This document shows positions 1 through 17,317 of a DNA stretch of 23,372 nt, one piece after another. Both the position numbers and the translations under genes were made by a program. Origin of the DNA: a virus; the IMG/VR virus record IMGVR_UViG_3300010883_000505, positions 1 to 23,372 of that record; one strand, written 5' to 3'. The notes under the pieces are model-generated. The model was not told where the DNA came from. It did no database searches and worked only from the letters and a program-made list of their open reading frames with translations. How positions within the stretch are numbered: position 1 is the first letter of the stretch; every line of letters begins with the position of its first letter.

Positions 1-1310
1 GTTCCTGTCACACATTGATCAATTGATGATGCTGTAGCCACATCACCATTAGCAAAAAGTGGTTGTGCTAACAATCCTATTTTACGGAAATCATTATTAG
101 TAGTAAAGTTTCCAGATTCACCGTACTCTAATCTACTATTAACCATGACAAAAAATCCACCAAGTTCTTCGATGGAATCATCGCCGTGTCCACCTCGGGG
201 GCCAATGGCTGACACCAAAGTTCCAGAACTTCCATGTGAAGCATTTGCGGTTATAGTTGCTACTGCATTACCATAATTGTTACCACCGGCAACCACCACA
301 ATATCTCCAATAACACCAGAAGCAGTATTTGTGGCACGAACATTTGCTCCTTGTCCATCACCAGTAATTGCGATTTTGGGGCCGATAGAATATCCAGCAC
401 CATCTTCAGGTATATTTGCATTAGCCAGTGCCGGTTCCCATGTTACAACCGCTGTACCATTTTGATAGTCTGTAATTGTACCACCTTTTCCTGTGACACC
501 AGTTCCACTATCAGAAGTGAAATAAATGTCACTACCGACAAACACATCAGTAGATTCAGAGGATTGTAATTTGGCTGTAGTTGTAGTTTCTGTATATCCG
601 GATTGGATTGTTCCAGTTTCAAATTTGTAAGCTGAACCACCAGCCGAAACGTGAATCACTTCAATTGCTCCATTACCAGAAGTATTGGCTGCAATTTCGA
701 CATCATACTGGAAAGATGAATCAGTAGTATTAGCAATGGCATCATTTGCCTTACGTACACGTTGTGTAGGCATGTAACTAGGTGTTACAAATTTAAGTGC
801 CCTTGCTGCAGAAATTTGATACATGAACTTCCATTTATAACTGTCACCAGTTGTAACTATAGATGTTCCTGTTCCAGTTGGTTTCGTAGTAGAAGTTCCC
901 CCTGTATTATTATTTGAGAGACATTTATATACATTATAATCATCAGTCATTACATAAAACTGTTGATCCCATAATGCGTTGTTCGCATGAGTATATGCAA
1001 AATAATTAGCTCCGGATGTCCAATTATACCTTGGTACAACATGACTTATATCAGTTGGGCCAATCTTTTTGGCTGCAATCATATCTCTCCAATGATTGTA
1101 GACGGTATTGGATACGGAGTCAGTTGGTGTTGGCGGTGCTGTATCATCCGCCCAAGCAGTTACTTTACCAATGAAAAGATACATTTGAGTATTAAGTAAC
1201 CCGCTTGCATCAGTTATCGCATTGCCCGATGTGGCCGAAACCTCATCAAATGCTTCAACGAACTGTTTTGCATTGTGAATTCTAAATTTGTTGGTTACTA
1301 TAGCAGGCAT
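1..1310 (-). CDS. 8: Baseplate wedge subunit gp8-like, 3' end cut by window edge
   Basis: The frame is open from an ATG at 1308-1310 to the left edge (436 codons, no stop). In T4, gp8 is a dimeric wedge subunit that joins gp7 and gp10 during wedge assembly. The N-terminus (PAIVTNKFR), the PTDS motif followed by a conserved W, the VVPRYNW segment, and a C-terminal NDFRKIGLLAQPL block near residue 406 match T4 gp8 landmarks in the same order. The T4 equivalent of that last block lies roughly 170 residues earlier, so this protein is enlarged. The extra stretch (about residues 215-360) holds GxGY-type repeats (SAGGSAY, EDGAGYS, AGGNNYG), as in marine phage structural proteins. A clear ribosome site, AGGAG (1319-1323), precedes the start, and a T4-type late promoter lies about 70 bases upstream. 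The family call is firm; the role of the insert is unknown. Confidence 0.85.
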   Translation of the reverse strand, partial: MPAIVTNKFRIHNAKQFVEAFDEVSATSGNAITDASGLLNTQMYLFIGKVTAWADDTAPPTPTDSVSNTVYNHWRDMIAAKKIGPTDISHVVPRYNWTSGANYFAYTHANNALWDQQFYVMTDDYNVYKCLSNNNTGGTSTTKPTGTGTSIVTTGDSYKWKFMYQISAARALKFVTPSYMPTQRVRKANDAIANTTDSSFQYDVEIAANTSGNGAIEVIHVSAGGSAYKFETGTIQSGYTETTTTAKLQSSESTDVFVGSDIYFTSDSGTGVTGKGGTITDYQNGTAVVTWEPALANANIPEDGAGYSIGPKIAITGDGQGANVRATNTASGVIGDIVVVAGGNNYGNAVATITANASHGSSGTLVSAIGPRGGHGDDSIEELGGFFVMVNSRLEYGESGNFTTNNDFRKIGLLAQPLFANGDVATASSIDQCVTG

Positions 1311-1442: not shown

Positions 1443-4400
1443 TTATTCTAATTTATTTCCACGAAATTTATATACTTTCCCTGTAGTATTACTATTATGA
1501 TTATACCCTGTTTTTGTTATTACGTATAATTCGTTATTATTGTCTGTCCCAAATCCTATTACAGTTTGATTCAATAATGGTATTTGATTGGGATTTAATT
1601 CTACTATCGTATTTTGACTGTTTAAATAATATAGTTTACCTGTATTATTTGAAAAACTTTGACTCCAATCTCCAAAAACATATTTTCCGATTAAGTCTGT
1701 ACAAGTACTTCCTCTATAAACATAACCACCGACAACCGCTATTCCATTAACTGCGCCACCTGTATGTGTATATGTTGCAACAGGAGTTTTAAGTGAATCT
1801 AACCATTGTTGACTTGTTACACTATCTTGTGCTGCCCAGGCTGCAATTTTGTCTTCATCTTCATCATGTGTATAAGTGCCTTCCTTAACACTCCATCCAT
1901 AATTTCCACCACTTACAACTTGATTTATTTCTTCTTGAGTACTTTGTCCCACATCCCCAACCCATAAGGTTCCAAGACCTGAATGTGTAGCATTACCAGT
2001 TCTGTACCAATCATGACTCATTCTCCAAGGATTTCTAAATCCGTATGCATATATTTCTTCTTGATATGATCCATGATTTTTATATGGATTATCATTGGGT
2101 ATCGAATAAGGTGAGCCACTATCAACATTTATTCTCAAAATTTTTCCTAATAAACTTGTTCTATCCAATGCTTTATTATTAGGATCACTTTGAGCTCCAC
2201 CATCTCCTGTGGCTATATACAAATATCCATCAGATCCAAAAGACAAACTTCCACCATTATGAACACCTGTGGGTTGATCAAATCGTAATATAATTGTTTC
2301 TGATGTTGCCGATGTATCAGTAATATAACTATTTGTAACATTACTATAAGTAGCAATATACATTGCAATAATAGATTCATGATCTATTCCAGCGCCCGAT
2401 TTTGCTTTAGAATAGTAAACATAATACTTACCATTCGACTTAAAACTAGGATGAAACGCCATACCTAACAATCCTCGTTCATCATAACCAGCAGTTAATG
2501 TTTGAACAGCTGATGTTATATCTAAAAATGGTGTACCTAAAAGACTTCCATTTTTAACTATTCTAATTTTACCTGCTTGTTCAGTAATAAAGATTCTGGA
2601 ATCAGGTATAGCATTCACGCCAGTACTTGTTACTGTAGTTGGAGATTCTAATCCTGTAACGATTGATTCCAAACTTATATTTTCAGATAGTACATTACTA
2701 TAGACTGAAGAAGATGTACTTGTTAGTGGAACAGTCTTTTTAAAATATGGTACTGAATCGGTTCCTCCAATATGTCTCCGTGTTACCACTGCTGATGTAT
2801 CATTGGTTATTGATGCAATTTTAAATTCTTGCGGATCAGTAATTAATAAATGTTCTCCATCTTCCAGCATGAGACTAAATCCCACAGAAGATTCATGAAT
2901 CATTGTTCCTGTAGTATCTTCTAATCCAAGAGCTCGTCCAGAAGCAGAATCTTGCATGATCATATTAAATGTAGCTGCAGCTGGATCTGGATCAAACGAT
3001 CCTTGAACTCCCGCTTGATTTGTACCGACATCAAATGCTCCTCCCGCAAAATCATCTGCTGCAAATGATGCAATAGTAGAATCTTCTGAACCAAGAAACC
3101 ATCTGAAATCTCTTATTTGTACACCACTAACAAATCCTATAACATCATTTTGTACAGAAATACACATCATATCTTCGTGTTCTAATCTTTCATCAGATTC
3201 CATTAAGATGTCTACTTCTTCTCCATCTAATTTAAAATTTTCCTCTTCTGTCTGAAATTCATCTCCTACTGCAAGTTCAGTAGTAAATGATGAACTATGT
3301 CCTGTTAAGGTTGTTCCAAGATGTGCAATTGAAGCCCCACCTTGAAGTTTTGTGGGAACCATGTAATTACTTGTAAGAGATTGTATTGCTGCATAATTAT
3401 ATTCAACTATTTTATCCTCCACAGTCATTTGTCCACCCATAGCCGCATGATTATGACAATAATAATATATCGTATCAGGGGCCTTTTCAATTCTTATTGT
3501 AGAATATGCACCAGCTTCTCCAAGTGTTCCATATTCTTGCCAACGCGGATCATTATTTGGTCGCACAGTTATTGCACCACCACCATCTACTAGAGCTCCG
3601 GCTTTTTCACTATGAGCAGTACAATAATAATATAAAGTTCCCGCTGCAGTTCCTGGAACGGTATATTCAACATATGCTCCTGCATTTCCTGGTGTTCCTA
3701 TAACTATTTTTCCGGTGGTAAACTCTGCTCCACTATTATGTGTTCCGTTATAAGTTGTCGAAAGTCTAAACGGATGTCCATTGTTAGAAGAATCACTTAA
3801 ATCAAATTTATAAGTTACTCCCTGTTCCATTATCAACGTAGGATGTAATTCCCATCCACTTCCTCTATCAATATAAAATACACTAGATGCTACTTTTACA
3901 TACCACGTATCATTTAATCTTCCTTCAAATTTAGTACTTGTTGATTGAGTATGTGGCCCATCAGCAATTGTTGAAAAATAGAATGGATGTTCAACATTGA
4001 CTGCCAAGGATGAATGACTCAAATCAAATTTATAAGTTTTTCCTACTTGTAAAACTATATTATTTGCTTGACTAACTCCATCAATAAGATATTTATATGG
4101 GCTACCAGAAGATTGCACTACAAAGGTCTGTGCTATTGTAGATGGTTCAAACTCCTGTCCCGGCTTGAGTTCATATTCAGTTTGAGATGTTTTGACATGA
4201 TCTTCTTCTGTAAGGGCTCTTGATTCATCCTCATAAATGTGATGGGTTACACCATCTTCCATCATTAAGTGCCAGCCATTTGTTTCAACCAAAGAAAATT
4301 GCATTTCAGGCTTGGTCACTCGATGTGGTAGGCGTTCTAATCCAATATTAACATCATCCTCATGAATAATATAATCAGTATCATCTTCTTGTTGAAGTTT

Positions 4401-7400
4401 TCCTAGTATAGAAGTAGAAAAACGATTACTATATTGTATGATATGATCTGGTGTTTTAACCTTTTCCAACTCAATGTAATTAATATTATCTTCATTAATA
4501 ATATAATCAGTATCATCTTCTTGTTGAATTTTTCCTAATACAGAGGTAGAAAAATTAATATCATATTCTACTTCATGACCGCTTAATTTTGCATGAGATT
4601 CTTCTGTTTGAACTCTAGATAATCTAGATGCCGTTTCATCACCTTCTACTATTAAATAAGAATCGTCTTCTAAGGTTAAATTATAACCAGCATTTTCGTA
4701 AAGATGAAATTCCGGTGCTTTATAATCTACATTGTAAATATTATAATCCACCTCAACTCTTATGTAATCTTTACCGTTCTCCATTAAGACTATACAATTA
4801 TCTTCTGTTCTTAACTTTCCTAAAGTAGAAAGATGATCGATGTACATTACTGGATAATAAGAACCATTCGTTATTGGAAATTGTTCTGTAATTAACCTAT
4901 GTGTTTCTTTTAGTCTTTCAAACTCAGCCAATGTATTCAGTAGGAGATGACCAGACCCATCTTCAAGAGCAAGATGGTTATAGACAGGAGCTCTCCAATC
5001 TTCTGTTACTATTTTTTCTAAATTTTCTGCAGTTAGGTGGCCGGACGAATCTTCAAGTGCAATATAAAAATTTTCATCTTCTAATATAAGATTTGGTGAA
5101 TATATGTCATCTTCACAAATTAAATCTAGGCCGTCTTCAGTCAAAAACCCATATCTCATTGAATTTTGAAGGTGTGACTCTATATGTGTTTCCATATATG
5201 GAATACTCAAATATTGATGTCCATCACCTTCAGTATCTTCTTCTAATGAAATAAATCTTGCAGGGCCTTGACCCTGACCGCCTGAAGCTTCATCAAGGAG
5301 ATAACCAGATCCCCCCTCATTATTATCTTCAAGAAGAACATCACTATTAAAACTCATATCAATAGATACACTTCCTGCTTCTGGAGTAGGGAATTTTAAT
5401 ACTGGATAAAGGTAAGATCCACCATGTTCAAGTAAAAACTTTTCACCATCCAATTCATCAATAGGAGCATTATTAAAAGGGGCTTCCCAATTTGAAGTAT
5501 CTGCTCTGTATACATTTGCAAAATTTAGAGTTTCTACTTTAATATAATCTAATACATCATCATCTGAATATTCATCTAATACATTTCCTAATAAGGATAA
5601 TGAAGCATATGAACTAGAGGTGCGTCCATCTTCCAAAAGAATTTGACCTGATTCATCTTCCATATAAACATAAAGATATGCAGATGCCGATACACTTGCA
5701 CCAGGATCACCTCTATATAATTGTACTGTATAAGTATTTCCATTGGGTACAGAATAGATTGTATATTTTCCGTTAAAGTGATCTTTCTGTTCTGATCCCC
5801 ATTGATTCCGATCTCCAGAAACTTGTATAGTGTCATCAACTTCCATATTGTGGAATGGGTCTGTAATAGTAGCATATGCTTCGATTCCAATAGCCGATGT
5901 TCGTTGCATTGTAATGTTTCTGAAATCTTCATATAAAAGATTTTCATCTCCTCTAACATCAATTCTACCATCCATGGCTTGCCAAGAATGTTTAGCAGTT
6001 TGTAATTCTAATATTCCACCCTTTGGATCTAAATATGATTCATATCCTCCACCGGCTAATGCCGCAGTTTTTTGATGTTGTACATTTGCATATGAATTAA
6101 TAGTAGGAGTAAGAAGCCTATATCTTGGAACATCTGCAGTAGCAGCAGTATGGGCAGTATTCGCTTCAGTAGAATTAATATCTCCATGTCTAGTAGCATC
6201 AAACATCGCAGCAGAGGTCTTATTACGAAATGCAACTTCTCCAAACATCAACATACCAGATGGGTGTGCCAATCTCTTCACACTATCTCGATAATCTGCC
6301 ACATCAAAATCTGTCTTTAAAACATACGAAAAATCTTGATAATATTTGTTATCTTGCATTTTTGGTGTACCACTTATTAATCCCTTTCCACCAACATAAT
6401 ATCCTGCATATTCTGCAAAGGCTCCCAATTCTGCACTAAGTTCAGCGTTTCTATTTCCAGTAGTTGTTGAAACAGTTGGAACTGAAGTATATCCCGCACC
6501 GAAATTATAAACTTCAATCGTCTTAATGGCACCAATTGCAATAGCCGAAACTTCTAAAGTAGCATTGTTACCTTTTGGTGAAGTATCTACAGTATAAGTA
6601 TTATAAGATGCCAAATAAGCAGAGGCAGCTCCCCTCACTCTGAGATCTCCAGCCGGAGATGCTACACCATTTTCTGCAAGTGTAAATGAATATGTGTTTG
6701 AATTAATGGCTGTAATTTCTTGAGTACCATTAACGATAAATGTCAAACATCCTGACATTTTAATTTTATCGCCTGTACGGAAAAAGTGTCCATTATCGGT
6801 TACTGTAATCGTTCTATTTCCTGTTCCACTTCCTGCCGCAGTAACAATTCGTTGATCTCCCCACGTTACAACACCATTATAATCAACGGAATATGTTTGT
6901 CCAGATCCTATTGGTTTATCTGTATCAACAAAAACAGATGTTGAATTTACAAATTCTGTTACAACTGCAGTTGTAGTGTCCAGATAAGTAACTGTTCCTC
7001 TTGGTAAATCATTAGGAAAGTTTGCTCCAGCTAATATTAATACTGTATCTTCATCACTTATAAACGTATCATTGTCTTCAAAAAGAATTACATCATCTCC
7101 ACCAGCAGTATTCGCTGCCGTAGTAGCCGACTCTCCCCGAATATAAAATCCTTTTTGTGTAATTGTACCAGTATTAATAGTTGAAATAGCATTACTGTAT
7201 GCAGTAATACGTTCAGCACTTGTACCAGTTTCCGTAAAAATTCTGGAACTTCCACTAAATGTACCATCATCAGGATCATCTTCATAGGCAATAATATCAC
7301 CAACAGTAGTAAGAACGGTTGTACCATCCTCCATACACATATATTCTACTGTGGCTCCAAAATCTTTAGTGGTATACATATCCAGCCGGATAGTTGTATT

Positions 7401-10001
7401 ACCATATTGTATGGGTGGTCTTACAGATTTTGCTTTATCAATATAATCTAGAACACAAGCTCTAACAGAATAATCATCATTATAAAGATAAGATTGAGCT
7501 GGAAAATTATTGGCGATGGCCATATAAGTTAAAACATATTCTTGGGAAGCATCATTAATTCCAAAATTTTTCTCTGATGATACTCTAATAGAAGTTGAAT
7601 TAGTAACAGCGGTTATTAAATCTGTATTTCCATTAGCATATGTAAGTGAATATAATCCTGAATTTGCATCAGGAAATGTTCCATTAAGAATTGTAACAAC
7701 ATTACTTGTTTGTGTTATGGTTCCAGTATCATAAGAATGTAGATTCAAATTGATCAATGAGTTATTGGCACCCATAACATCTAATGCATTATTAAATGTT
7801 GTTATGTAATTATTAGAAACAGAAACAACAGGCGAAGCTTCATATTTTTCACCACCTGCAGTAATTGAACAGGATGCCACAGCACCAACATTTTTCGTTT
7901 CAGTATTTAATGCGCCGACAGTTATATGTGCTATAGTAGTACCACTTTGACCAAATGCGTCAACATAAGAAACATTGGAAGTACTATTAACTACTTGACT
8001 TGCGGGGGTATTACCAATTGCAAAAGTAACACCTGTATGTGTCATGTGGGAATCATAAGAATTTGCAGATTTTGTGGCATATGCTCTAGTTCTTGCCGCG
8101 TCGTATATAATAACAGAATCATTATTTGCAAAATTATCTACACTAAGAGCATCTAGGTCTGGATCACGTTGATATGATCCCACTGCATAAAGAATTTGTG
8201 AACTATTTGCTCCAATGATTGTTGCCCAAGTAGTATTAGATCCATAATACATATTCCAGTTTTGTGCACTACCTATTGTATGAGCATCCTTAACAGTAAA
8301 AACGGTAGTATTAGTATAACTAGTAATAATTGTATTATTACCGTTTGCATAGGTAAGTTTCCCACCAACCACATCTCTTCGTTCACTTTCGGTAAGTGGT
8401 GCAGAAAATGTAACAGTAGTTCCTGTTTGAGTAAGAGTAGTACCACCAGAATCAATATGTATTTGTTTCCTAAGTTGATTGCCCGCTTTAATAAATTGTG
8501 AATTCCACATTGCACCGGCAGCATCAAAATACAATGCTGTAGTGGCTTTAATGGTTGATTGAAATATTAAGGAAGAATTACCATACAAGTGTGTATTAGC
8601 ATTATGACCCGGCATTTGATTTACATAATCAGCTTCACTTATTGCCGTTTCTTTATAAGTACTAACTTGGTCAGAATTAATAACAACAGCACCAGTTGGG
8701 ATAATTCCAGAAATGCGACCTGAGGCGCCTGAACCTCCTGTTCCCTCATCAATAAATTTAAGAACATCACCTACAGAATATCCATCTCCTGAGTCCAATA
8801 TAGTAATACCCTCAACTACGGAATCTGCAATAGTCGCTACTCTTGCTCTTGCATCTTGACCCCCACCACCAGTAAACGAAATTTCATCACCAATAGTATA
8901 TTCTGTTCCACCCACTTGAACTGAAACTTCTTTAACAAGTCCAGAAGTAGCTGCAAGTCCAAACTTACCATATATGTCCGTTTCGGTTGTGATAAGTTCG
9001 TTAACTTTAAAAAATCCTAATTTATTGTCATCATCTAATCCAGCAATAACATCAGATAAATAAAGTTCTGCAACTAAAAGTGCACCGACAGAAGTAGTTA
9101 TAGCTCGCTCTACCATAGCAGAACATTTAGAAGAAGCTCCTGTGATTTTTCTTCCAGTAAATAAATCGAGATTTGTAGCACTAGATGCTATAACTTTAAT
9201 TGTTTTATCAAGTGTCCATCTACCATCTGATAACCTCATTAAGTCATTTTTAGGATAATAAAATTCTACATCTTCTTTAGCAAATATTGATCTGAATACC
9301 CAAGTAAAAGAACTTTCATTTCCTTTTGACCGATAGACTTGTTTCATCCGTTTAAGAAGTTGTCTACGATCTGTTCTTGTAGTTCTTGGAACATTCGTAT
9401 AAAATTCTTTTTTCCATGCATCATCAATAAGACCTTCATTTGTCTTATCAATGTCTTGCATGTCTGCAAGTTCCCTTGTAGCAGCAACAGGACCTCTTGA
9501 TCTAAAAGACTCTATAGCACCTTCAGGAAATACATTTGCTGAAATACCATTTGCTAATGTAGAATATGCGCGGGAAGTTCCGCCTGTGATTTGTTCCCCG
9601 TATTGAAATACGGCTTCATTGGTAGGTTTTATAAATGCGTGAGTATTACCTTTTGTTCCAGTAACAACAGCAGTAGCACCAGAAGTGTTACCTGTAATAG
9701 TTTCACCAATATGAAATTGTAAATTTGCATTAGCGGCAGTATCACGTTCAGATTCTAATTGAATACGATCAGTATTTTCATATGTTATAAATTCAACACC
9801 CTCAGTTGTAACAATAGAATCTTCAGGAAGAATTTTAAATTCATTGAAAGTAAACCCATCAAAATATATTTGATGAGATTCCATGAATTCATAATATTTT
9901 TCTATGAATTTTTTAAACTTGGGGTGGTCATATGTTACAAATTCTGGTAATTGACCCTCAAGTAATATTGAGATATCTTTTTTATCTTTAACTTCAGCCA
10001 T
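1443..10001 (-). CDS. Giant baseplate wedge protein (gp7 position) with nested cupredoxin-like domains and C-terminal sugar-dehydrogenase-like beta-propeller
   Basis: This 2852-aa frame sits between gp6 and gp8, the place of T4 gp7 (about 1030 aa), the wedge initiator. Residues 14-42 (QLPEFVTYDHPKF, then FIEKYYEFMES) and 195-262 (YRSKGNESSF, FYYPKNDLMRLSDGRW) resemble the N-termini of large wedge proteins in marine myoviruses. About residues 355-420 carry GxGY repeats, and several beta modules of the TYANGN..IT type follow. A YYQDFSYVLKT...HPSGMLMFGE block lies near 1215-1255. Residues 1450-1935 are an acidic tract of short LEDG/EDG repeats. Residues 1960-2195 form a split cupredoxin-like region, and 2425-2850 a glucose/sorbosone-dehydrogenase-like propeller. 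The start codon overlaps the gp6 stop (TAATG). The low-complexity, modular make-up suggests frequent domain exchange. The wedge role rests on position plus N-terminal resemblance; any enzyme role is inferred. Confidence 0.8.
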   Translation of the reverse strand: MAEVKDKKDISILLEGQLPEFVTYDHPKFKKFIEKYYEFMESHQIYFDGFTFNEFKILPEDSIVTTEGVEFITYENTDRIQLESERDTAANANLQFHIGETITGNTSGATAVVTGTKGNTHAFIKPTNEAVFQYGEQITGGTSRAYSTLANGISANVFPEGAIESFRSRGPVAATRELADMQDIDKTNEGLIDDAWKKEFYTNVPRTTRTDRRQLLKRMKQVYRSKGNESSFTWVFRSIFAKEDVEFYYPKNDLMRLSDGRWTLDKTIKVIASSATNLDLFTGRKITGASSKCSAMVERAITTSVGALLVAELYLSDVIAGLDDDNKLGFFKVNELITTETDIYGKFGLAATSGLVKEVSVQVGGTEYTIGDEISFTGGGGQDARARVATIADSVVEGITILDSGDGYSVGDVLKFIDEGTGGSGASGRISGIIPTGAVVINSDQVSTYKETAISEADYVNQMPGHNANTHLYGNSSLIFQSTIKATTALYFDAAGAMWNSQFIKAGNQLRKQIHIDSGGTTLTQTGTTVTFSAPLTESERRDVVGGKLTYANGNNTIITSYTNTTVFTVKDAHTIGSAQNWNMYYGSNTTWATIIGANSSQILYAVGSYQRDPDLDALSVDNFANNDSVIIYDAARTRAYATKSANSYDSHMTHTGVTFAIGNTPASQVVNSTSNVSYVDAFGQSGTTIAHITVGALNTETKNVGAVASCSITAGGEKYEASPVVSVSNNYITTFNNALDVMGANNSLINLNLHSYDTGTITQTSNVVTILNGTFPDANSGLYSLTYANGNTDLITAVTNSTSIRVSSEKNFGINDASQEYVLTYMAIANNFPAQSYLYNDDYSVRACVLDYIDKAKSVRPPIQYGNTTIRLDMYTTKDFGATVEYMCMEDGTTVLTTVGDIIAYEDDPDDGTFSGSSRIFTETGTSAERITAYSNAISTINTGTITQKGFYIRGESATTAANTAGGDDVILFEDNDTFISDEDTVLILAGANFPNDLPRGTVTYLDTTTAVVTEFVNSTSVFVDTDKPIGSGQTYSVDYNGVVTWGDQRIVTAAGSGTGNRTITVTDNGHFFRTGDKIKMSGCLTFIVNGTQEITAINSNTYSFTLAENGVASPAGDLRVRGAASAYLASYNTYTVDTSPKGNNATLEVSAIAIGAIKTIEVYNFGAGYTSVPTVSTTTGNRNAELSAELGAFAEYAGYYVGGKGLISGTPKMQDNKYYQDFSYVLKTDFDVADYRDSVKRLAHPSGMLMFGEVAFRNKTSAAMFDATRHGDINSTEANTAHTAATADVPRYRLLTPTINSYANVQHQKTAALAGGGYESYLDPKGGILELQTAKHSWQAMDGRIDVRGDENLLYEDFRNITMQRTSAIGIEAYATITDPFHNMEVDDTIQVSGDRNQWGSEQKDHFNGKYTIYSVPNGNTYTVQLYRGDPGASVSASAYLYVYMEDESGQILLEDGRTSSSYASLSLLGNVLDEYSDDDVLDYIKVETLNFANVYRADTSNWEAPFNNAPIDELDGEKFLLEHGGSYLYPVLKFPTPEAGSVSIDMSFNSDVLLEDNNEGGSGYLLDEASGGQGQGPARFISLEEDTEGDGHQYLSIPYMETHIESHLQNSMRYGFLTEDGLDLICEDDIYSPNLILEDENFYIALEDSSGHLTAENLEKIVTEDWRAPVYNHLALEDGSGHLLLNTLAEFERLKETHRLITEQFPITNGSYYPVMYIDHLSTLGKLRTEDNCIVLMENGKDYIRVEVDYNIYNVDYKAPEFHLYENAGYNLTLEDDSYLIVEGDETASRLSRVQTEESHAKLSGHEVEYDINFSTSVLGKIQQEDDTDYIINEDNINYIELEKVKTPDHIIQYSNRFSTSILGKLQQEDDTDYIIHEDDVNIGLERLPHRVTKPEMQFSLVETNGWHLMMEDGVTHHIYEDESRALTEEDHVKTSQTEYELKPGQEFEPSTIAQTFVVQSSGSPYKYLIDGVSQANNIVLQVGKTYKFDLSHSSLAVNVEHPFYFSTIADGPHTQSTSTKFEGRLNDTWYVKVASSVFYIDRGSGWELHPTLIMEQGVTYKFDLSDSSNNGHPFRLSTTYNGTHNSGAEFTTGKIVIGTPGNAGAYVEYTVPGTAAGTLYYYCTAHSEKAGALVDGGGAITVRPNNDPRWQEYGTLGEAGAYSTIRIEKAPDTIYYYCHNHAAMGGQMTVEDKIVEYNYAAIQSLTSNYMVPTKLQGGASIAHLGTTLTGHSSSFTTELAVGDEFQTEEENFKLDGEEVDILMESDERLEHEDMMCISVQNDVIGFVSGVQIRDFRWFLGSEDSTIASFAADDFAGGAFDVGTNQAGVQGSFDPDPAAATFNMIMQDSASGRALGLEDTTGTMIHESSVGFSLMLEDGEHLLITDPQEFKIASITNDTSAVVTRRHIGGTDSVPYFKKTVPLTSTSSSVYSNVLSENISLESIVTGLESPTTVTSTGVNAIPDSRIFITEQAGKIRIVKNGSLLGTPFLDITSAVQTLTAGYDERGLLGMAFHPSFKSNGKYYVYYSKAKSGAGIDHESIIAMYIATYSNVTNSYITDTSATSETIILRFDQPTGVHNGGSLSFGSDGYLYIATGDGGAQSDPNNKALDRTSLLGKILRINVDSGSPYSIPNDNPYKNHGSYQEEIYAYGFRNPWRMSHDWYRTGNATHSGLGTLWVGDVGQSTQEEINQVVSGGNYGWSVKEGTYTHDEDEDKIAAWAAQDSVTSQQWLDSLKTPVATYTHTGGAVNGIAVVGGYVYRGSTCTDLIGKYVFGDWSQSFSNNTGKLYYLNSQNTIVELNPNQIPLLNQTVIGFGTDNNNELYVITKTGYNHNSNTTGKVYKFRGNKLE
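1446..2726 (-). other. Protein domain: soluble glucose/sorbosone dehydrogenase-like (PQQ-dependent sugar dehydrogenase / HHIP-like) beta-propeller
   Basis: Residues about 2425-2850 of the giant protein read as the GSDH family. Signatures in order are RIFITEQAGKIRIV, then DERGLLGMAFHPSF and GKYYVYYS. Next come HNGGSLSFGSDGYLYIATGDGG with His2581, GKILRIN, and IYAYGFRNPWR with Arg2656. The end has LWVGDVGQ, EEINQVVSGGNYGW, GGYVYRG and GKYVFGDW. In soluble glucose dehydrogenase the equivalents of the HxxG histidine and the RNP arginine are the catalytic base and a PQQ contact. The lysine and paired arginines that bind PQQ further on are not obvious here, so the variant is closer to HHIP/YliI-type members. 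Binding without catalysis is possible. Confidence 0.9.
2784..3299 (-). other. Protein region: 'SFTTEL..VGDE' beta module split by an EDG-rich insertion
   Basis: Residues about 2235-2254 (GHSSSFTTELAVGDEF) look like the first half of a small beta module common in marine phage tail proteins. The expected continuation (EFKIASITNDTSAVVT) appears only at about 2390-2406. The roughly 135 residues between them are acidic and contain LEDG/EDGEHLL repeats of the kind seen at 1450-1935. The simplest reading is an insertion into the module. Confidence 0.5.
3417..4124 (-). other. Protein region: cupredoxin-like domain interrupted by a second cupredoxin-like domain
   Basis: Residues about 1960-2195 of the giant protein. 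The outer domain's first half has KYLIDG, GKTYKFDLS and HPFYFST (His2005). Its second half is GEAGAYSTIRIEKAP followed by YYYCHNHAAMGGQM (Cys2182, His2185, Met2188). Between D2031 and P2152 lies a complete copy: GVTYKFDLS, HPFRLSTT (His2076), GNAGAY, and YYYCTAHSEKAG (Cys2127, His2130). The His...Cys-x2-His-x2-Met set is the type 1 copper ligand pattern; the inner copy has Lys2133 in place of Met. Such modules are frequent in marine phage structural proteins, and copper binding there is unproven as far as I know. Confidence 0.7.
4185..5650 (-). other. Protein region: acidic LEDG/EDG repeat tract
   Basis: Residues about 1450-1935 of the giant protein are dominated by short units such as ILLEDG, LEDGSGHL, ILEDENF, IALEDSSGHL, TEDGLDLI and LMMEDG, separated by longer linkers. 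The alternation of hydrophobic beta-prone residues with acidic turns suggests a solenoid or fibrous stalk, perhaps binding cations. No known enzyme motif is visible. Confidence 0.6.
4365..4528. repeat. Direct repeat, 132-base period (44 aa), inside the giant gene
   Basis: A 32-base stretch at 4365-4396 is identical to 4497-4528. It encodes the core of a tandem protein unit, FSTSxLGKxQQEDDTDYII followed by an acidic pair. A more diverged third relative (LSTLGKLRTEDN) lies upstream in the protein. The near-identity at DNA level points to a recent in-frame duplication. Confidence 0.8.
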
Positions 10002-11878
10002 TAGTATCCAGTTGCTAGGGTTGTTCCATCAACAGAGCCAACTGCCCCCTGAACATATGTTCCGGTTCCGGCGTCATCTATCATCGTAATATTAAGATCT
10101 CCTTCTTCGATTAATATAATTTGTTCCCTTAAAGGTAAAACATCGTTAGAAGCTGGAGTAACATAAACTGCCATTTGTGTAGTATTGCCTGTAGTTGCTG
10201 AACCTATCGCAATAGGTTTAAAACTTAAAAGTTCCATTTTACCAGAACTATAAGTAATTGATCCTACATTGTTATCCACAATTATTCTATCTTGTCCAGA
10301 AGTTCTATAAACTTGAACAACTCCATTAACATCTTGCATTCTACATCCTGTCCATAATGTATTAGCAGAATCGCGATATGAAAAATCCCCACTAGTTACC
10401 GCTCCCCAAAAAGTATTTGAGGGGTGATATATCTCATTAGAAAATTTTAGATCATAAGCAGAACTAGATCCTAGTAATGGATAAAAATATCGTTTTATTG
10501 CAATTGATGTTTGATTGCTCTTAACTGAAATTTCTGACTCATCAATTTTTTTAATTAAATTGGAATATCTAAACGATTTATCAAAATCTTTTAACTGAGT
10601 TGTTCCATAATCTATAATAGCAGTAGAAACTGTTGATTTAAGAGTTGCGGAACTATTTGTTGTCATACCAGAATCATATTTGACTGTAGCATTAATTTTT
10701 AAATACAAATAATCTGGATCTTTAACTTCTGGTGTAACTCCAACAACATTTCGTTTAGCTAAAATTGTATCTTGTACCCAGGCTTTGGTAGATCCTGAAA
10801 GAACCGTTCCTGATGCTGGTTTAATGGCAACAAAGACCTTACCATAAACTGGCGGATCATCATCTTCACCCCCCCAAGCGACAACTGATTGTGCTCCACT
10901 ATAATCTCGTTTAACTGTAGTAACATAATCATGAGTTGTTACACATCTATTTTGTGCATCAAAACTTTTCGGAGCATTAAATTTAATTCCTTCCATATCT
11001 TCTGGTTCTTGTCCTCCACCTGCTGAAGATACAGTTTCTATTTTTACGTTAGAATATCCCCCCACATCAGATACAACTGAAAATGCCTTACATCCATTAG
11101 TATCGTCTGCGTCACATATTAAACTAGACATTATAACAATATTACCATTTGATACATTCTTTCCTAACACCCCATCACCAAATTCAACTTCATATTTTCC
11201 ATCTGCATTTTCCGTTAAGAAATATATTTTAGAAAGAGCATTTACTGTAGTAATATCATTAGCTACAGTATAAGTATATGATTCAGTATCGGTATCTGAA
11301 GTTTGAATTACTACAGATAACGTATCAGTATCAACATTTGCATTTGGAAGAATAAATTTTTGATCTACATCACCTGTATTGGCAGTATATCTAAAGGTTA
11401 CAGGAATACCTTGAGTCAAATCTACACTTGTGGCAGTATATACTCCATTAGCATTAACGTTTATAGTGTGGGAATTAGCAGTACACCAAATATATGATAC
11501 TCCATCTACATCACCAGAAAATTGTGTATTTTTATTTACACTAATGAGTGAAGGGCTTCCTGTTGGAGTAATAGTAAGATTTACTGTAGCTTTAGATCCT
11601 CTTGCTGAACGTGGAATATAGCCTAAATGTTTTGCACGGGCAACAACAGAATTTCTCAATGTTGCGGAATCCAAAAACATTTCATTGGCAACCATATTTG
11701 CATAATATGCATTATAATGTGTATTGTAAGCTAATACATCCATAAGAACATCGAAAGATGAACCCTTGAAATTATAACCAACAAATTCCGCCTGATTGCT
11801 CAAAAATCCTATAAGATTATCTTTAATTTTTGTGAAATCTAATTCTGATATGTTTAATTTTCCTTCTGCACTAGCCAT
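10001..11878 (-). CDS. 6: Baseplate wedge subunit gp6 (J-like)
   Basis: The 625-aa length is close to T4 gp6 (660 aa), the wedge backbone protein whose ring of dimers holds the baseplate together; the fold is shared with phage P2/Mu gpJ-like proteins. The N-terminus is diagnostic: LDFTKIKDNL, FKGSSFDVLMDVLAYNTHYN, ANEMFLDSATLR, then ARHLGY-type AKHLGYIPRSARGS at about residues 14-95. The middle contains a beta-rich segment and EVEFGDGVLGK, also a family hallmark. The gene starts one base after the gp25 stop, with GGAGAG just upstream inside gp25. Its own stop overlaps the giant gene's start, so translation of the three is probably coupled. Confidence 0.93.
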   Translation of the reverse strand: MASAEGKLNISELDFTKIKDNLIGFLSNQAEFVGYNFKGSSFDVLMDVLAYNTHYNAYYANMVANEMFLDSATLRNSVVARAKHLGYIPRSARGSKATVNLTITPTGSPSLISVNKNTQFSGDVDGVSYIWCTANSHTINVNANGVYTATSVDLTQGIPVTFRYTANTGDVDQKFILPNANVDTDTLSVVIQTSDTDTESYTYTVANDITTVNALSKIYFLTENADGKYEVEFGDGVLGKNVSNGNIVIMSSLICDADDTNGCKAFSVVSDVGGYSNVKIETVSSAGGGQEPEDMEGIKFNAPKSFDAQNRCVTTHDYVTTVKRDYSGAQSVVAWGGEDDDPPVYGKVFVAIKPASGTVLSGSTKAWVQDTILAKRNVVGVTPEVKDPDYLYLKINATVKYDSGMTTNSSATLKSTVSTAIIDYGTTQLKDFDKSFRYSNLIKKIDESEISVKSNQTSIAIKRYFYPLLGSSSAYDLKFSNEIYHPSNTFWGAVTSGDFSYRDSANTLWTGCRMQDVNGVVQVYRTSGQDRIIVDNNVGSITYSSGKMELLSFKPIAIGSATTGNTTQMAVYVTPASNDVLPLREQIILIEEGDLNITMIDDAGTGTYVQGAVGSVDGTTLATGY

Positions 11879-11879
11879 T

Positions 11880-12272
11880 TTATGCTCTCTCCAAATAAAC
11901 TTCTAAGGTTGTTTCTTGTACATCATTATCTGGTATAAAGGTAATATTAATTAAATAGGCGTTTGATGCTTCATCGGCCTTTACTGTTACCTTTTGTATA
12001 TTCGCTCTAGGTTCAAATTTTCCTAATGCGTGTGCTATCGCTTTTGATATTCTATTTTCTGTTAATGCCCCAAAAGGTGCAAATAATAATGCATTGAGTC
12101 CACCATCAATATCTGGTTGAAATAATCGTTCACCCGCTTGAGTTTTTATTATATTGTTTATAGATCTATTAATTGCCTTTGTTTTAGTGACAAATAATAA
12201 ATCTCCATGGGCGGGATGTTTACCAAAATCCATGTCAAAATCTTTATATTGTTTTCCGTATGTTGTTGGCAT
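11880..12272 (-). CDS. 25: Baseplate wedge subunit gp25 (lysozyme-like fold)
   Basis: At 130 aa it matches T4 gp25 (132 aa). The family core is clear: FGKHPAHGDLLFVTK (residues 16-30), AINRSINNIIKT (33-44), GERLFQP (47-53) and LLFAPFG (62-68). In T4, gp25 nucleates sheath contraction at the inner wedge by binding gp6 and gp53 and offering a sheath-like handshake motif. The family is often labelled GPW/gp25 or lysozyme-like, but wedge members are structural. The 26-base gap upstream holds an AAGAG ribosome site. A near-octamer (ACTAAATA, 12284-12291) is too weak to call as a promoter. Confidence 0.95.
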   Translation of the reverse strand: MPTTYGKQYKDFDMDFGKHPAHGDLLFVTKTKAINRSINNIIKTQAGERLFQPDIDGGLNALLFAPFGALTENRISKAIAHALGKFEPRANIQKVTVKADEASNAYLINITFIPDNDVQETTLEVYLERA

Positions 12273-14422: not shown

Positions 14423-17317
14423 TTAATACTCCTTATCTCTTCCACTATAAATTTCATATTTATTTCTGGCGGTTTTTATACTTTCAGTTAATTGAGCTAA
14501 ACTTTCGACATCTTTTAAAATTCCTCCCAATAAATCTACATCTTGTCCCAGCAAATGATTTGCATTATTGAATAAGGCTCTACCATAAGGAACATGACCA
14601 GACCCGGTGTTCGATGCAGGAATAGCACTCACTTTAACCACTGGCGCTGTTCCAGCCGAACTAGGAGTCCCGGCATATGTTGGTTTACCAATTCTGTTAT
14701 CAATTTCCACTATCCGTTGATCACAAGCTGTTGAAAGAGCTGCCATTGCCGTGCGGGTATTTTCCCATGCCGTTACTCCAGTTTTAGAACCACTAAGACT
14801 TTCATAGTTTATTGCACTTCCAGTTGCAAGAGTTTGACCAAGAACTCCTGTTCCACTTGCTGGATGTGCTACTCTACCACTACCATTAAAATCAGTAACA
14901 AATTGTCCCAGGGCAGATTCTGCAACGACTGTATTTGCTGTAACATCCGAGTCTTTTCCATCAAAATTCGCATCGGAAATTCCCCCGGCTCCAGCTCCAT
15001 TAGTTCCATGTGCTCCTGTAATAATAGGATCTCGGAAACTACTTAAAGAAGCGAGTGAAACAGCACAAGCTTTAACAAAATTATAATCACTAACATCAGC
15101 ACCCGTTCCAGTTACATGCTGTCTCACAAAATTATAATAACATGGAAATGTACTATCCAAGTGATTTGTATATACTACAGTATAAGCTGTGCTTCCACAA
15201 GTTGTTACGTGAGTAATAGTACATTGTACATGATTTATGGTTATGAAGTTGTTTGCTTCTTTTATATAATACGACCCTCTGCTTACAGTTCTATTGTTCG
15301 CTGTAGTATCGACACCACCGGCCGCAAAGTTGGGGCCGTATCCAACTCCGGTAAGAGCAGATGCATACTTAATAGCAGAATCTGCTGGGACCGTATTTAC
15401 TGAAGTATTAGTCCCATGACCTCCTGTATTATCAACAGTAACTACTCTAGTAATAACACCACTCAATGGTTGTCTTGGCATTTCTGCACGGGGTTCTCCT
15501 GTAGCATTACCTCCCATAGCTTTACTTGCATGAGTATATTGTTTATTTGGGTCCTGTACAACTGCAGTAGAACCTGTTGAATATCCCCTCCAATGCGCAG
15601 GTAAATAAAAATACTTTTCGGCATTATCCACAACATATCGAAAATCTGTTACAGCACCCGCCGCATTTTCTCTATCTTTATTAAAAGAAACAAATCTTCC
15701 ACACCAAACATCTTTATCACTCAATCCTGTAGGTTGTGTTCCTGTGATTTCACCATTTTCAGTTGCCGCTGCTTTAGTGGTTCCACCAGTTGACGGAAAC
15801 ATTGGGTTCGTTTCTATGTCTGGATAACTTGTTTCGTTATACTCTTTTCCTGAAGATATATAATCTCCACTTCCTCCTTTTGATAAATCGTTCGCTCCTC
15901 CTCCAGAAGCTTGTGCCGGATCAAAGAAACCAAGAAGGGCAATATACTGTGATGTATTTGCATTACATAAATCATGCTCTGAATTGTTTGGATACGTACC
16001 ATTAGTATCCCCAACAGGAGTCCAAGTAGAGTTTGCCACAAGACCTTCTCCAGATACTTCCAATTGACAAAAAATAGTATCAGCACCATGACCAAATGGA
16101 ACACTATTTACTGTAATTGTAACGGTTCCCGTTGCAGTTGCTTTCCCTGGATATGACATCGAATAACTTGTTCCAGTTGATACGCTTGCTGAGTTATCAA
16201 TCGTTACCTGAGTATCACTATCTCTTGACACAACATTTCCACCACCACCACTAATAGTCACTACTGAATCTACTTCAACAGTAGATGGCCATGTTCCTGA
16301 CGAAAGAGTTACTACATTTGCTGCTTGGCCTACTGTTCCGGTGGTGTATGTAATATTTCCCATTCTTATTTGATTTTTTTTAGTCAATGCCGCAGCAATC
16401 TTAACTGGCCCTCCGGCTCCTGACGGAATTCCTGTTCCACTAATTACATCATTATATTTTGTTTTTACAATATCTGTATCTGAAATACCAGTAATATCAA
16501 CACTATTAACAGTTGTTGTTCCTGTGATGGTGAATGTATTTACAGCATCGGCATGTCTCTTGAGATAAAATTTATTGCCAAAACTCGGACCCTGAGGAGT
16601 ATAATTCGTATTACTTCCTTGTGTTAAGTGATCAGCCAAAGTTATTACATTTAATGCTAAGACTCCTCCACTATTTTTTACAGATGTACCTGTAACGTTT
16701 GCTCTTGCCCAATGATAGTTCCATGTGTTAGCATCTTCTTCTCCTGCTACTGAACTTCCCCACGCAATCGCATTTCCGAAAACATTATCATCAGTTCCGT
16801 CTGGTGTAGTATAAACACTCAAGTTTGCATTTATATCTTCTAGTTCTCCTGATATTCTAGATCTGCTTAAATAATAATCAGTAATTCGAGTACTGAATGT
16901 ATTCCCATCAATAGTTTGAGTTCCCGCGGTGTTTTGTAAAGTAATAGTGGTTTTTTCATCTATTGTTGTACAGACAAAACCAAAATATGAAGTATTAGGT
17001 TCTGTAAGAGTAAGAGCGGCGTTTACAGTTTGATAAGCCGGAAAGGTAAATTTTTGGATTCCTGTACCGGCCACTTGTAAATCTCTTGCTCCAATGCATA
17101 TCAACCTTTGAGCAGCTAAATTTTCACATATATTAGCCACAGAATAATATGGGTTACTTCCAAATCTTTGACATACTGCTTGAAGATATGTTTGAGCAAA
17201 CTCCCTGGACAATCCAATATCTTTAAGGATACTTGTCCTAGCATCGATATGAATTATGGGTTGAGTTTCTAATTCATCAACTACTTCATTTTTTTTCTTT
17301 TCAATTGCTCCTGCCAT
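14423..17317 (-). CDS. Unrecognised large virion structural protein, 964 aa
   Basis: No family is recognised. The N-terminal 90 residues (SILKDIGLSREFAQTYLQAVC, NPYYSVANICENLAAQRLICIGA) look globular and helical. The rest is Thr/Gly/Asn-rich and probably beta. Residues about 330-390 (VGQAANVVTLSSGTWPS, then DTQVTIDNSASV) match a beta module repeated in the giant wedge protein. Residues about 690-760 hold several Cys and His (FITINHVQCTITHVTTCGS, STFPCYYNF). The C-terminal 60 residues return to helix (LLGGILKDVESLAQLTESIKTARNKYEIY). No transmembrane segment is seen. It lies between the gp5/157-aa pair and the 79-aa gene in the late operon, so a baseplate or fibre role is likely but unproven. 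Confidence 0.7.
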   Translation of the reverse strand: MAGAIEKKKNEVVDELETQPIIHIDARTSILKDIGLSREFAQTYLQAVCQRFGSNPYYSVANICENLAAQRLICIGARDLQVAGTGIQKFTFPAYQTVNAALTLTEPNTSYFGFVCTTIDEKTTITLQNTAGTQTIDGNTFSTRITDYYLSRSRISGELEDINANLSVYTTPDGTDDNVFGNAIAWGSSVAGEEDANTWNYHWARANVTGTSVKNSGGVLALNVITLADHLTQGSNTNYTPQGPSFGNKFYLKRHADAVNTFTITGTTTVNSVDITGISDTDIVKTKYNDVISGTGIPSGAGGPVKIAAALTKKNQIRMGNITYTTGTVGQAANVVTLSSGTWPSTVEVDSVVTISGGGGNVVSRDSDTQVTIDNSASVSTGTSYSMSYPGKATATGTVTITVNSVPFGHGADTIFCQLEVSGEGLVANSTWTPVGDTNGTYPNNSEHDLCNANTSQYIALLGFFDPAQASGGGANDLSKGGSGDYISSGKEYNETSYPDIETNPMFPSTGGTTKAAATENGEITGTQPTGLSDKDVWCGRFVSFNKDRENAAGAVTDFRYVVDNAEKYFYLPAHWRGYSTGSTAVVQDPNKQYTHASKAMGGNATGEPRAEMPRQPLSGVITRVVTVDNTGGHGTNTSVNTVPADSAIKYASALTGVGYGPNFAAGGVDTTANNRTVSRGSYYIKEANNFITINHVQCTITHVTTCGSTAYTVVYTNHLDSTFPCYYNFVRQHVTGTGADVSDYNFVKACAVSLASLSSFRDPIITGAHGTNGAGAGGISDANFDGKDSDVTANTVVAESALGQFVTDFNGSGRVAHPASGTGVLGQTLATGSAINYESLSGSKTGVTAWENTRTAMAALSTACDQRIVEIDNRIGKPTYAGTPSSAGTAPVVKVSAIPASNTGSGHVPYGRALFNNANHLLGQDVDLLGGILKDVESLAQLTESIKTARNKYEIYSGRDKEY

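Follow-up and report, generated by a model that had tools for sequence, protein, structure and literature searches.

Why should a long protein encoded among baseplate genes end in a domain of the sugar-dehydrogenase family, and what could such a domain do on a phage particle? The question is raised by a stretch of viral DNA of 23 372 nt (IMG/VR record IMGVR_UViG_3300010883_000505, positions 1 to 23 372), which as a whole is called the window below. A sequence-only reading of the window, made without database searches, had proposed that the last ~420 residues of a 2852-aa wedge protein are a glucose/sorbosone dehydrogenase-type propeller, fused to the phage part with no stop or composition break and without a known parallel among virion baseplate proteins. 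We followed up this proposal by profile searches, structure prediction, searches of viral sequence collections and phylogenetic analysis; the features discussed are located in Table 1.

Table 1. Location of the features in the window, with the evidence for each (residue numbers refer to the 2852-aa protein)
Feature	Position	Strand	Evidence
gp7-position baseplate wedge protein, 2852 aa, propeller C-terminal	1443..10001	-	Pfam, PHROGs, synteny with relatives
Wedge core part 1, residues 184-259	9225..9452	-	PF23786
Wedge core part 2, residues ~1187-1271	6189..6443	-	PHROG 4406 and PF23786 profile tail
Two cupredoxin-like modules, apparently nested, residues ~1955-2195	3417..4139	-	Motif positions; weak Pfam support in relatives
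Junction: conserved parent end (GGTDSVPYFKKTV, VPYF at 2417) and ~20-residue linker leading to the propeller	2667..2753	-	Alignment with relatives ending here
GSDH / PQQ-sugar-dehydrogenase-type six-bladed beta-propeller (as modelled), residues 2446-2849	1455..2666	-	PF07995, profile envelope, AlphaFold2, Foldseek
His2581 (HNGG), where PQQ glucose dehydrogenases have their catalytic base	2259..2261	-	Invariant in alignments A1, A2, A3
Arg2656-Asn2657 (FRNP), PQQ-contacting pair of the enzyme family	2031..2036	-	Alignments, motif positions
His2746 (YTHT)	1764..1766	-	Invariant in all phage copies and closest bacterial relatives
Baseplate wedge gp8, truncated by window edge	3..1310	-	PHROG 438, E=1.1e-82
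Baseplate wedge gp6	10001..11878	-	PF21379, PHROG 219
Baseplate wedge gp25	11880..12272	-	PF04965, PHROG 261

The wedge protein and its C-terminal domain

All 2852 codons of the reading frame are open, with zero internal stops. The Pfam and PHROG identities of its product and of the neighbouring genes show that the window is part of a baseplate gene cluster from a T4-like virus: the phage part of the protein was matched by PF23786 (E=5e-8, 33 bits) and PHROG 17744 (1e-43), and the PHROGs found for the neighbours were those of gp6, gp25, gp8, gp53, hub and tail families. With gp6 and gp8 on its flanks and with wedge homology, the protein has the attributes of the gp7 type, in agreement with the proposal that the propeller is fused to a baseplate wedge protein; its placement as gp7 in this phage is nevertheless an inference from synteny and from a wedge homology that is weak. 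It is like T4 gp7 and the gp7-position proteins of the marine T4-like phages HTVC008M, Mosig and Melnitz in following gp6 and in having homologous N-terminal wedge regions, but in Melnitz and Mosig the gp7-position product is only ~870-900 aa long. The gp6 of the window was closest to those of Pelagibacter phages Mosig and HTVC008M and Methylophilales phage Melnitz (39-41% identity), and the source is a tailed phage of probably marine origin.

No Pfam match was obtained for a 964-aa protein of the baseplate cluster (14423-17317, minus strand), nor for a long stretch of degenerate LEDG/EDGS repeats (HLxxEDxSxxLxxED) within the wedge protein (residues ~1434-2033; 3903-5702, minus strand), which is common to relatives and makes up a fibrous or repeat structure whose fold is unknown. 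The cupredoxin-like modules contain the motifs HPF (at residues 2005 and 2076), YYYCTAH (2124) and YYYCHNHAAM (2179). Similar modules, often repeated, are present in relatives, with a Pfam Copper-bind match (1.3e-3) in one of seven. A profile search of the PDB with these modules returned only chance matches to antibodies, and the cupredoxin fold is therefore not established.

The family call for the C-terminus was upheld. Pfam GSDH (PF07995) matched residues 2461-2777 with E=1e-39 (137 bits, the cut-off being 25), and the full domain bounds were taken from a profile built in the analysis; the span of 1446-2726 proposed earlier is made up of this domain, a short linker and the final residues. 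The GC content of the domain is 33.3%, as against 35.2% in the remaining ORF, so that no composition break separates the two parts. As AlphaFold2 run on the single sequence of the domain was uninformative (pLDDT 33), we used instead a run with a 26-sequence alignment, which gave pLDDT 81 and pTM 0.88. The best match of this model in a Foldseek search of the PDB was HHIP (7pgm, E=1.5e-29), after which came Acinetobacter PQQ-GDH (1cq1, E=5.8e-22) and E. coli Asd (2g8s, E=1.8e-20), with Pyrobaculum aldose sugar dehydrogenase also among the matches. The predicted fold is the GSDH propeller, not another one; a sequence search of the PDB concurred, with HHIP at the top (phmmer 8.5e-40). According to the model the domain is a complete six-bladed GSDH propeller (the blades were not counted by eye).

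Junction, recurrence and precedents

A search of IMG/VR with the N-terminal 430 residues yielded 54 loci. GSDH was absent from 26 of 26 complete close relatives (N-terminal identity ~49-79%), in which gp8 is the next gene; these relatives share with the window protein the wedge core, the LEDG-rich repeats and the cupredoxin-like modules. In the alignment of the C-termini the relatives terminate at, or a few residues past, ...VTRKHWGGTDAVPFWKQTT, and the window protein reads ...VTRRHIGGTDSVPYFKKTV, continuing through the linker into the propeller. Because the conserved end of the parent is intact, the propeller is a clean C-terminal addition rather than a replacement, and since the relatives stop just before it the addition is recent. 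The secreted or periplasmic, free-standing state that is a trait of PQQ enzymes is not found here, the domain being fused in frame to the wedge protein. No second copy of the exact C-terminal architecture of the window was retrieved, with the reservation that near-identical records could escape our searches.

Similar fusions, which the sequence-only reading had advised looking for in viral metagenomes, recurred across many independent IMG/VR contigs, and for this reason misassembly is counted unlikely. While a single-sequence pattern scan of IMG/VR gave no matches, alignment-based scans, which proved necessary, gave 40 tailed-virus loci with GSDH, of which 8 are tail-fibre-like and 32 in gp7 position (some of the 40 are one virus in several assemblies). 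At the 8 loci (L016-L021, L041 and L042) GSDH is the C-terminal domain of proteins of 484-704 aa; a tail-fibre N-terminus (PHROG 2710) was found in those tested, except L016, and genes of tail-fibre or wedge-fibre connector families lie nearby. At the 32 loci GSDH is internal to long proteins, always C-terminal to the wedge core and usually with ~1000 more, largely His-rich residues beyond it; gp6 upstream and wedge homology were seen wherever the contig covers the upstream genes. Missing in 26 close relatives and shared with tail-fibre proteins, the propeller has one trait expected of a phage receptor-binding domain: it is a lineage-variable C-terminal module that different tail proteins have in common.

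A second lineage includes three loci (L151-L153) with a gp7 of 709-712 aa that lacks a C-terminal extension, next to a gp6 and a gp8 that share 78% and 84% identity with their counterparts in a relative that has GSDH. A short gp7 in company with conserved gp6 and gp8 shows that the wedge can do without the extension; it represents either a natural deletion or the ancestral state within the lineage.

Some of the long proteins carry further modules. In L022:6794-14125 and L030:5888-14035 a stretch of ~1000 residues beyond the propeller consists of His-rich modules in repeated form (SHDHLLY..., HYHGYSI...), which are possibly metal-binding, and an additional module is inserted in the last propeller blade. 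Repeated Cys-rich inserts (GTCSD...C...SSGETW) were seen in L030, within and before the propeller, and in L048. One locus, L165, was left out because its GSDH is a disrupted remnant with unrelated genes as neighbours.

A tree was built from the window domain and 28 distinct domain sequences, plus bacterial and archaeal relatives; long-branch rows (E. coli YliI and L003) were flagged and lie outside the compared groups. The window domain formed a clade with the tail-fibre copies (support 100/99), and the gp7-internal copies formed a separate one (100/100); a single origin of all phage copies had support of only 86/69 and is unresolved. Forcing the window copy together with the other gp7 copies was rejected by the AU test (p-AU 0.0042), which rules out its orthology with the gp7-internal copies. 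Judging from the tail-fibre grouping and from this rejection, the module has moved between virion proteins, in tail-fibre and gp7 contexts, and the window propeller came from the tail-fibre pool, not by descent from other gp7 fusions.

The statement that the fusion has no described precedent in tailed phages also held. Among predicted viral structures (BFVD) a clear GSDH fold was seen only in giant viruses, and no tailed phage matched well. The proteins concerned, from giant viruses of Loki's Castle (Pithovirus LCPAC, Marseillevirus LCMAC102), differ from the phage copies in that they belong to eukaryotic viruses and are annotated as LRR or stand-alone GSDH, not as tail or baseplate proteins. 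In INPHARED the domain was found in no genuine phage record, the five matches being bacterial contigs as far as they were opened. Four of these (H1-H4, 'Acinetobacter phage MD-2021a') look bacterial and were not counted, H1 lying beside universal-stress and gmr genes and H2-H4 being unopened; neither was H5, whose contig looks bacterial and carries ABC transporter and sugar-operon genes. The phage-filed but apparently bacterial chromosome contigs are CAKLQH020000031.1, CAKLQF020000008.1, CAKLQH020000008.1, CAKLQF020000012.1 and MT837751.1 (the two opened have ordinary bacterial neighbours), and such misfiled contigs are a source of contamination for claims of GSDH in phages. In the literature we found nothing beyond viral contigs whose AA12 (quinoprotein glucose/sorbosone dehydrogenase) genes are listed as auxiliary metabolic (PMC6460857); with its open-access scope, this search is weak evidence of absence. 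A stand-alone metabolic gene was considered as a reading of the window domain and rejected.

Pocket residues and the cofactor

The landmarks named in the sequence-only reading were located exactly, the His of HNGG being residue 2581, the Arg of FRNP residue 2656, and GGNYGW beginning at 2698. All 26 aligned sequences keep His144, Arg219, Asn220, Asn263, Gly265, Trp266 (NxGW included) and His309, where domain numbering plus 2437 gives protein numbering. Thus the His and the Arg-Asn pair expected of the pocket (H2581, R2656, N2657) are invariant in the 26-sequence alignment A3, as they are in alignments that include E. coli YliI. The loss of RNP known from HHIP was not seen: the phage domain has FRNPWR against LHDPGR in HHIP, which retains a His but has HDP in place of RNP. 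Given that the invariant RNP pair is one that HHIP lost, the phage domain looks enzyme-like at its pocket and HHIP-like in overall similarity.

Neither known system is a full parallel. The HHIP propeller (7pgm/2wft), the best match in both sequence and fold, is likewise six-bladed, falls in the GSDH superfamily and serves for binding, but it belongs to an animal protein, has HDP where the phage has RNP, and has no link to virions. The soluble PQQ glucose/aldose dehydrogenases (GdhB 1cq1, YliI 2g8s, Pyrobaculum 3a9g) share with the phage domain the fold, the Pfam family, the His base and the Arg-Asn pair; they are, however, secreted or periplasmic single-domain enzymes, whereas the phage copy lies within a 2852-aa baseplate protein and its activity is only inferred. 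The Lys/Arg residues that anchor the PQQ carboxylates in Acinetobacter GdhB (Lys377, Arg406 and Arg408) could not be located in the phage domain, where the aligned region reads YTHTGG, without an equivalent Arg pair and with the invariant His2746 instead. As these basic residues were not found, PQQ binding is not established. Pairwise dN/dS of the domain was 0.09-0.35 (simple counting, some pairs near saturation); the tested phage copies are under purifying selection.

Possible roles at the host surface

There are no virion proteomics or binding data, and sugar binding, catalysis, presence in the virion and outward display are all inferred. The suggestion of the sequence-only reading that the domain may bind or oxidise glycans of the host surface is plausible without being shown. 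The reading that we favour, as reasonably though by no means firmly supported, is that the propeller engages host-surface sugars, and we leave open whether it only binds them or also carries out PQQ oxidation. A mobile GSDH propeller, which phages have probably passed between them as a tail or adhesin domain, has been added to the end of a gp7-type wedge protein in a T4-like relative of the pelagiphages. Each T4 tail has six copies of gp7, which is situated, like gp8-gp11, at the periphery of the baseplate (PMC3004832); since gp7 is at the baseplate rim, six copies of the propeller would be displayed outward from it. There the propeller may use the family pocket to engage a sugar, or a molecule that bears one, on the host envelope. 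The pocket of the GSDH family binds aldoses and, the pocket residues being kept, an aldose-type ligand is probably bound, although no binding data exist; PQQ oxidation may take place, given extracellular cofactor. The host-contact reading rests on the module being appended to gp7 and on its occurring elsewhere at tail-fibre ends. In general, enzymatic tailspikes and tail domains that bind receptors are swappable C-terminal virion domains acting on host surface polysaccharides; the known ones, unlike the present case, are hydrolases, lyases, deacetylases or lectin-like, and we found none described with a sugar-dehydrogenase fold.

The propeller could instead be a non-catalytic, HHIP-like scaffold for protein or glycan recognition, with the pocket residues kept for structural reasons. 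We take this for a real possibility, if a somewhat doubtful one. The end of a tail fibre is the position of a receptor-binding domain, and the nearest solved fold is that of a non-enzyme ligand binder, the propeller part of HHIP binding heparin and a protein ligand in a surface-binding role (PMC8660895); still, a pure scaffold would have no need of the invariant Arg-Asn pair lost in HHIP. That pair, found with the catalytic His in every aligned phage copy, speaks rather for a particle-borne enzyme, an active sugar oxidoreductase dependent on PQQ, which would oxidise host or environmental aldoses and so alter a receptor or feed electrons to the neighbouring cupredoxin-like module. Cupredoxin-like Cys/His/Met motifs do lie just upstream of the propeller, and a GSDH domain occurs in a haloarchaeal protein annotated as plastocyanin. 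Such an enzyme remains tentative and rather unlikely, as the remaining PQQ-anchoring residues were not found in our alignments, the supply of PQQ outside the host is unknown, and the cupredoxin-like modules are also present in GSDH-free relatives, one of the two in the window lacking the Met ligand.

If the propeller only decorated the baseplate, serving structure or assembly and playing no part at the host surface, this would fit the large variable C-terminal extensions that are common in the gp7-position protein, but we consider it improbable: relatives assemble without the propeller (the 26 complete ones are GSDH-free and L151-L153 have no extension), and it occurs on tail fibres too. Hardly credible is an assembly chimera in which a bacterial GSDH gene was joined to a phage gene. 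The window is admittedly a single 23-kb metagenomic contig whose C-terminal architecture was not retrieved again; against this, frame and composition are continuous, gp8 is directly next, similar fusions exist in many other contigs, and the domain is 62-63% identical to the nearest phage tail-fibre copy but at most ~49% to bacterial copies.

One could speculate further that the virions of some tailed phages bear quinoprotein sugar oxidoreductases: a GSDH propeller that can be exchanged, exposed on tail fibres and baseplates and perhaps accompanied by cupredoxin-like modules, would recognise and oxidise host-surface sugars at attachment. We think this unlikely on present evidence; if the oxidoreductase reading were true, it would mean redox chemistry on a phage adhesin.

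Phage adhesins usually have lectin-like folds or are polysaccharide-degrading enzymes. If, as we favour, the propeller engages host-surface sugars, the GSDH propeller would be a new fold in the part of an exchangeable virion host-contact domain, its presence in the virion and its contact with the host being inferred, and with a sugar-dehydrogenase propeller that recurs on tail fibres and baseplates and can be exchanged, the virion toolbox would gain one fold. This would also suggest a ligand class, aldoses or terminal envelope sugars, in relatives of SAR11 and Methylophilales phages, for which receptors are largely unknown. Dehydrogenase genes in viral contigs, once called auxiliary metabolic, can be domains of virion proteins.
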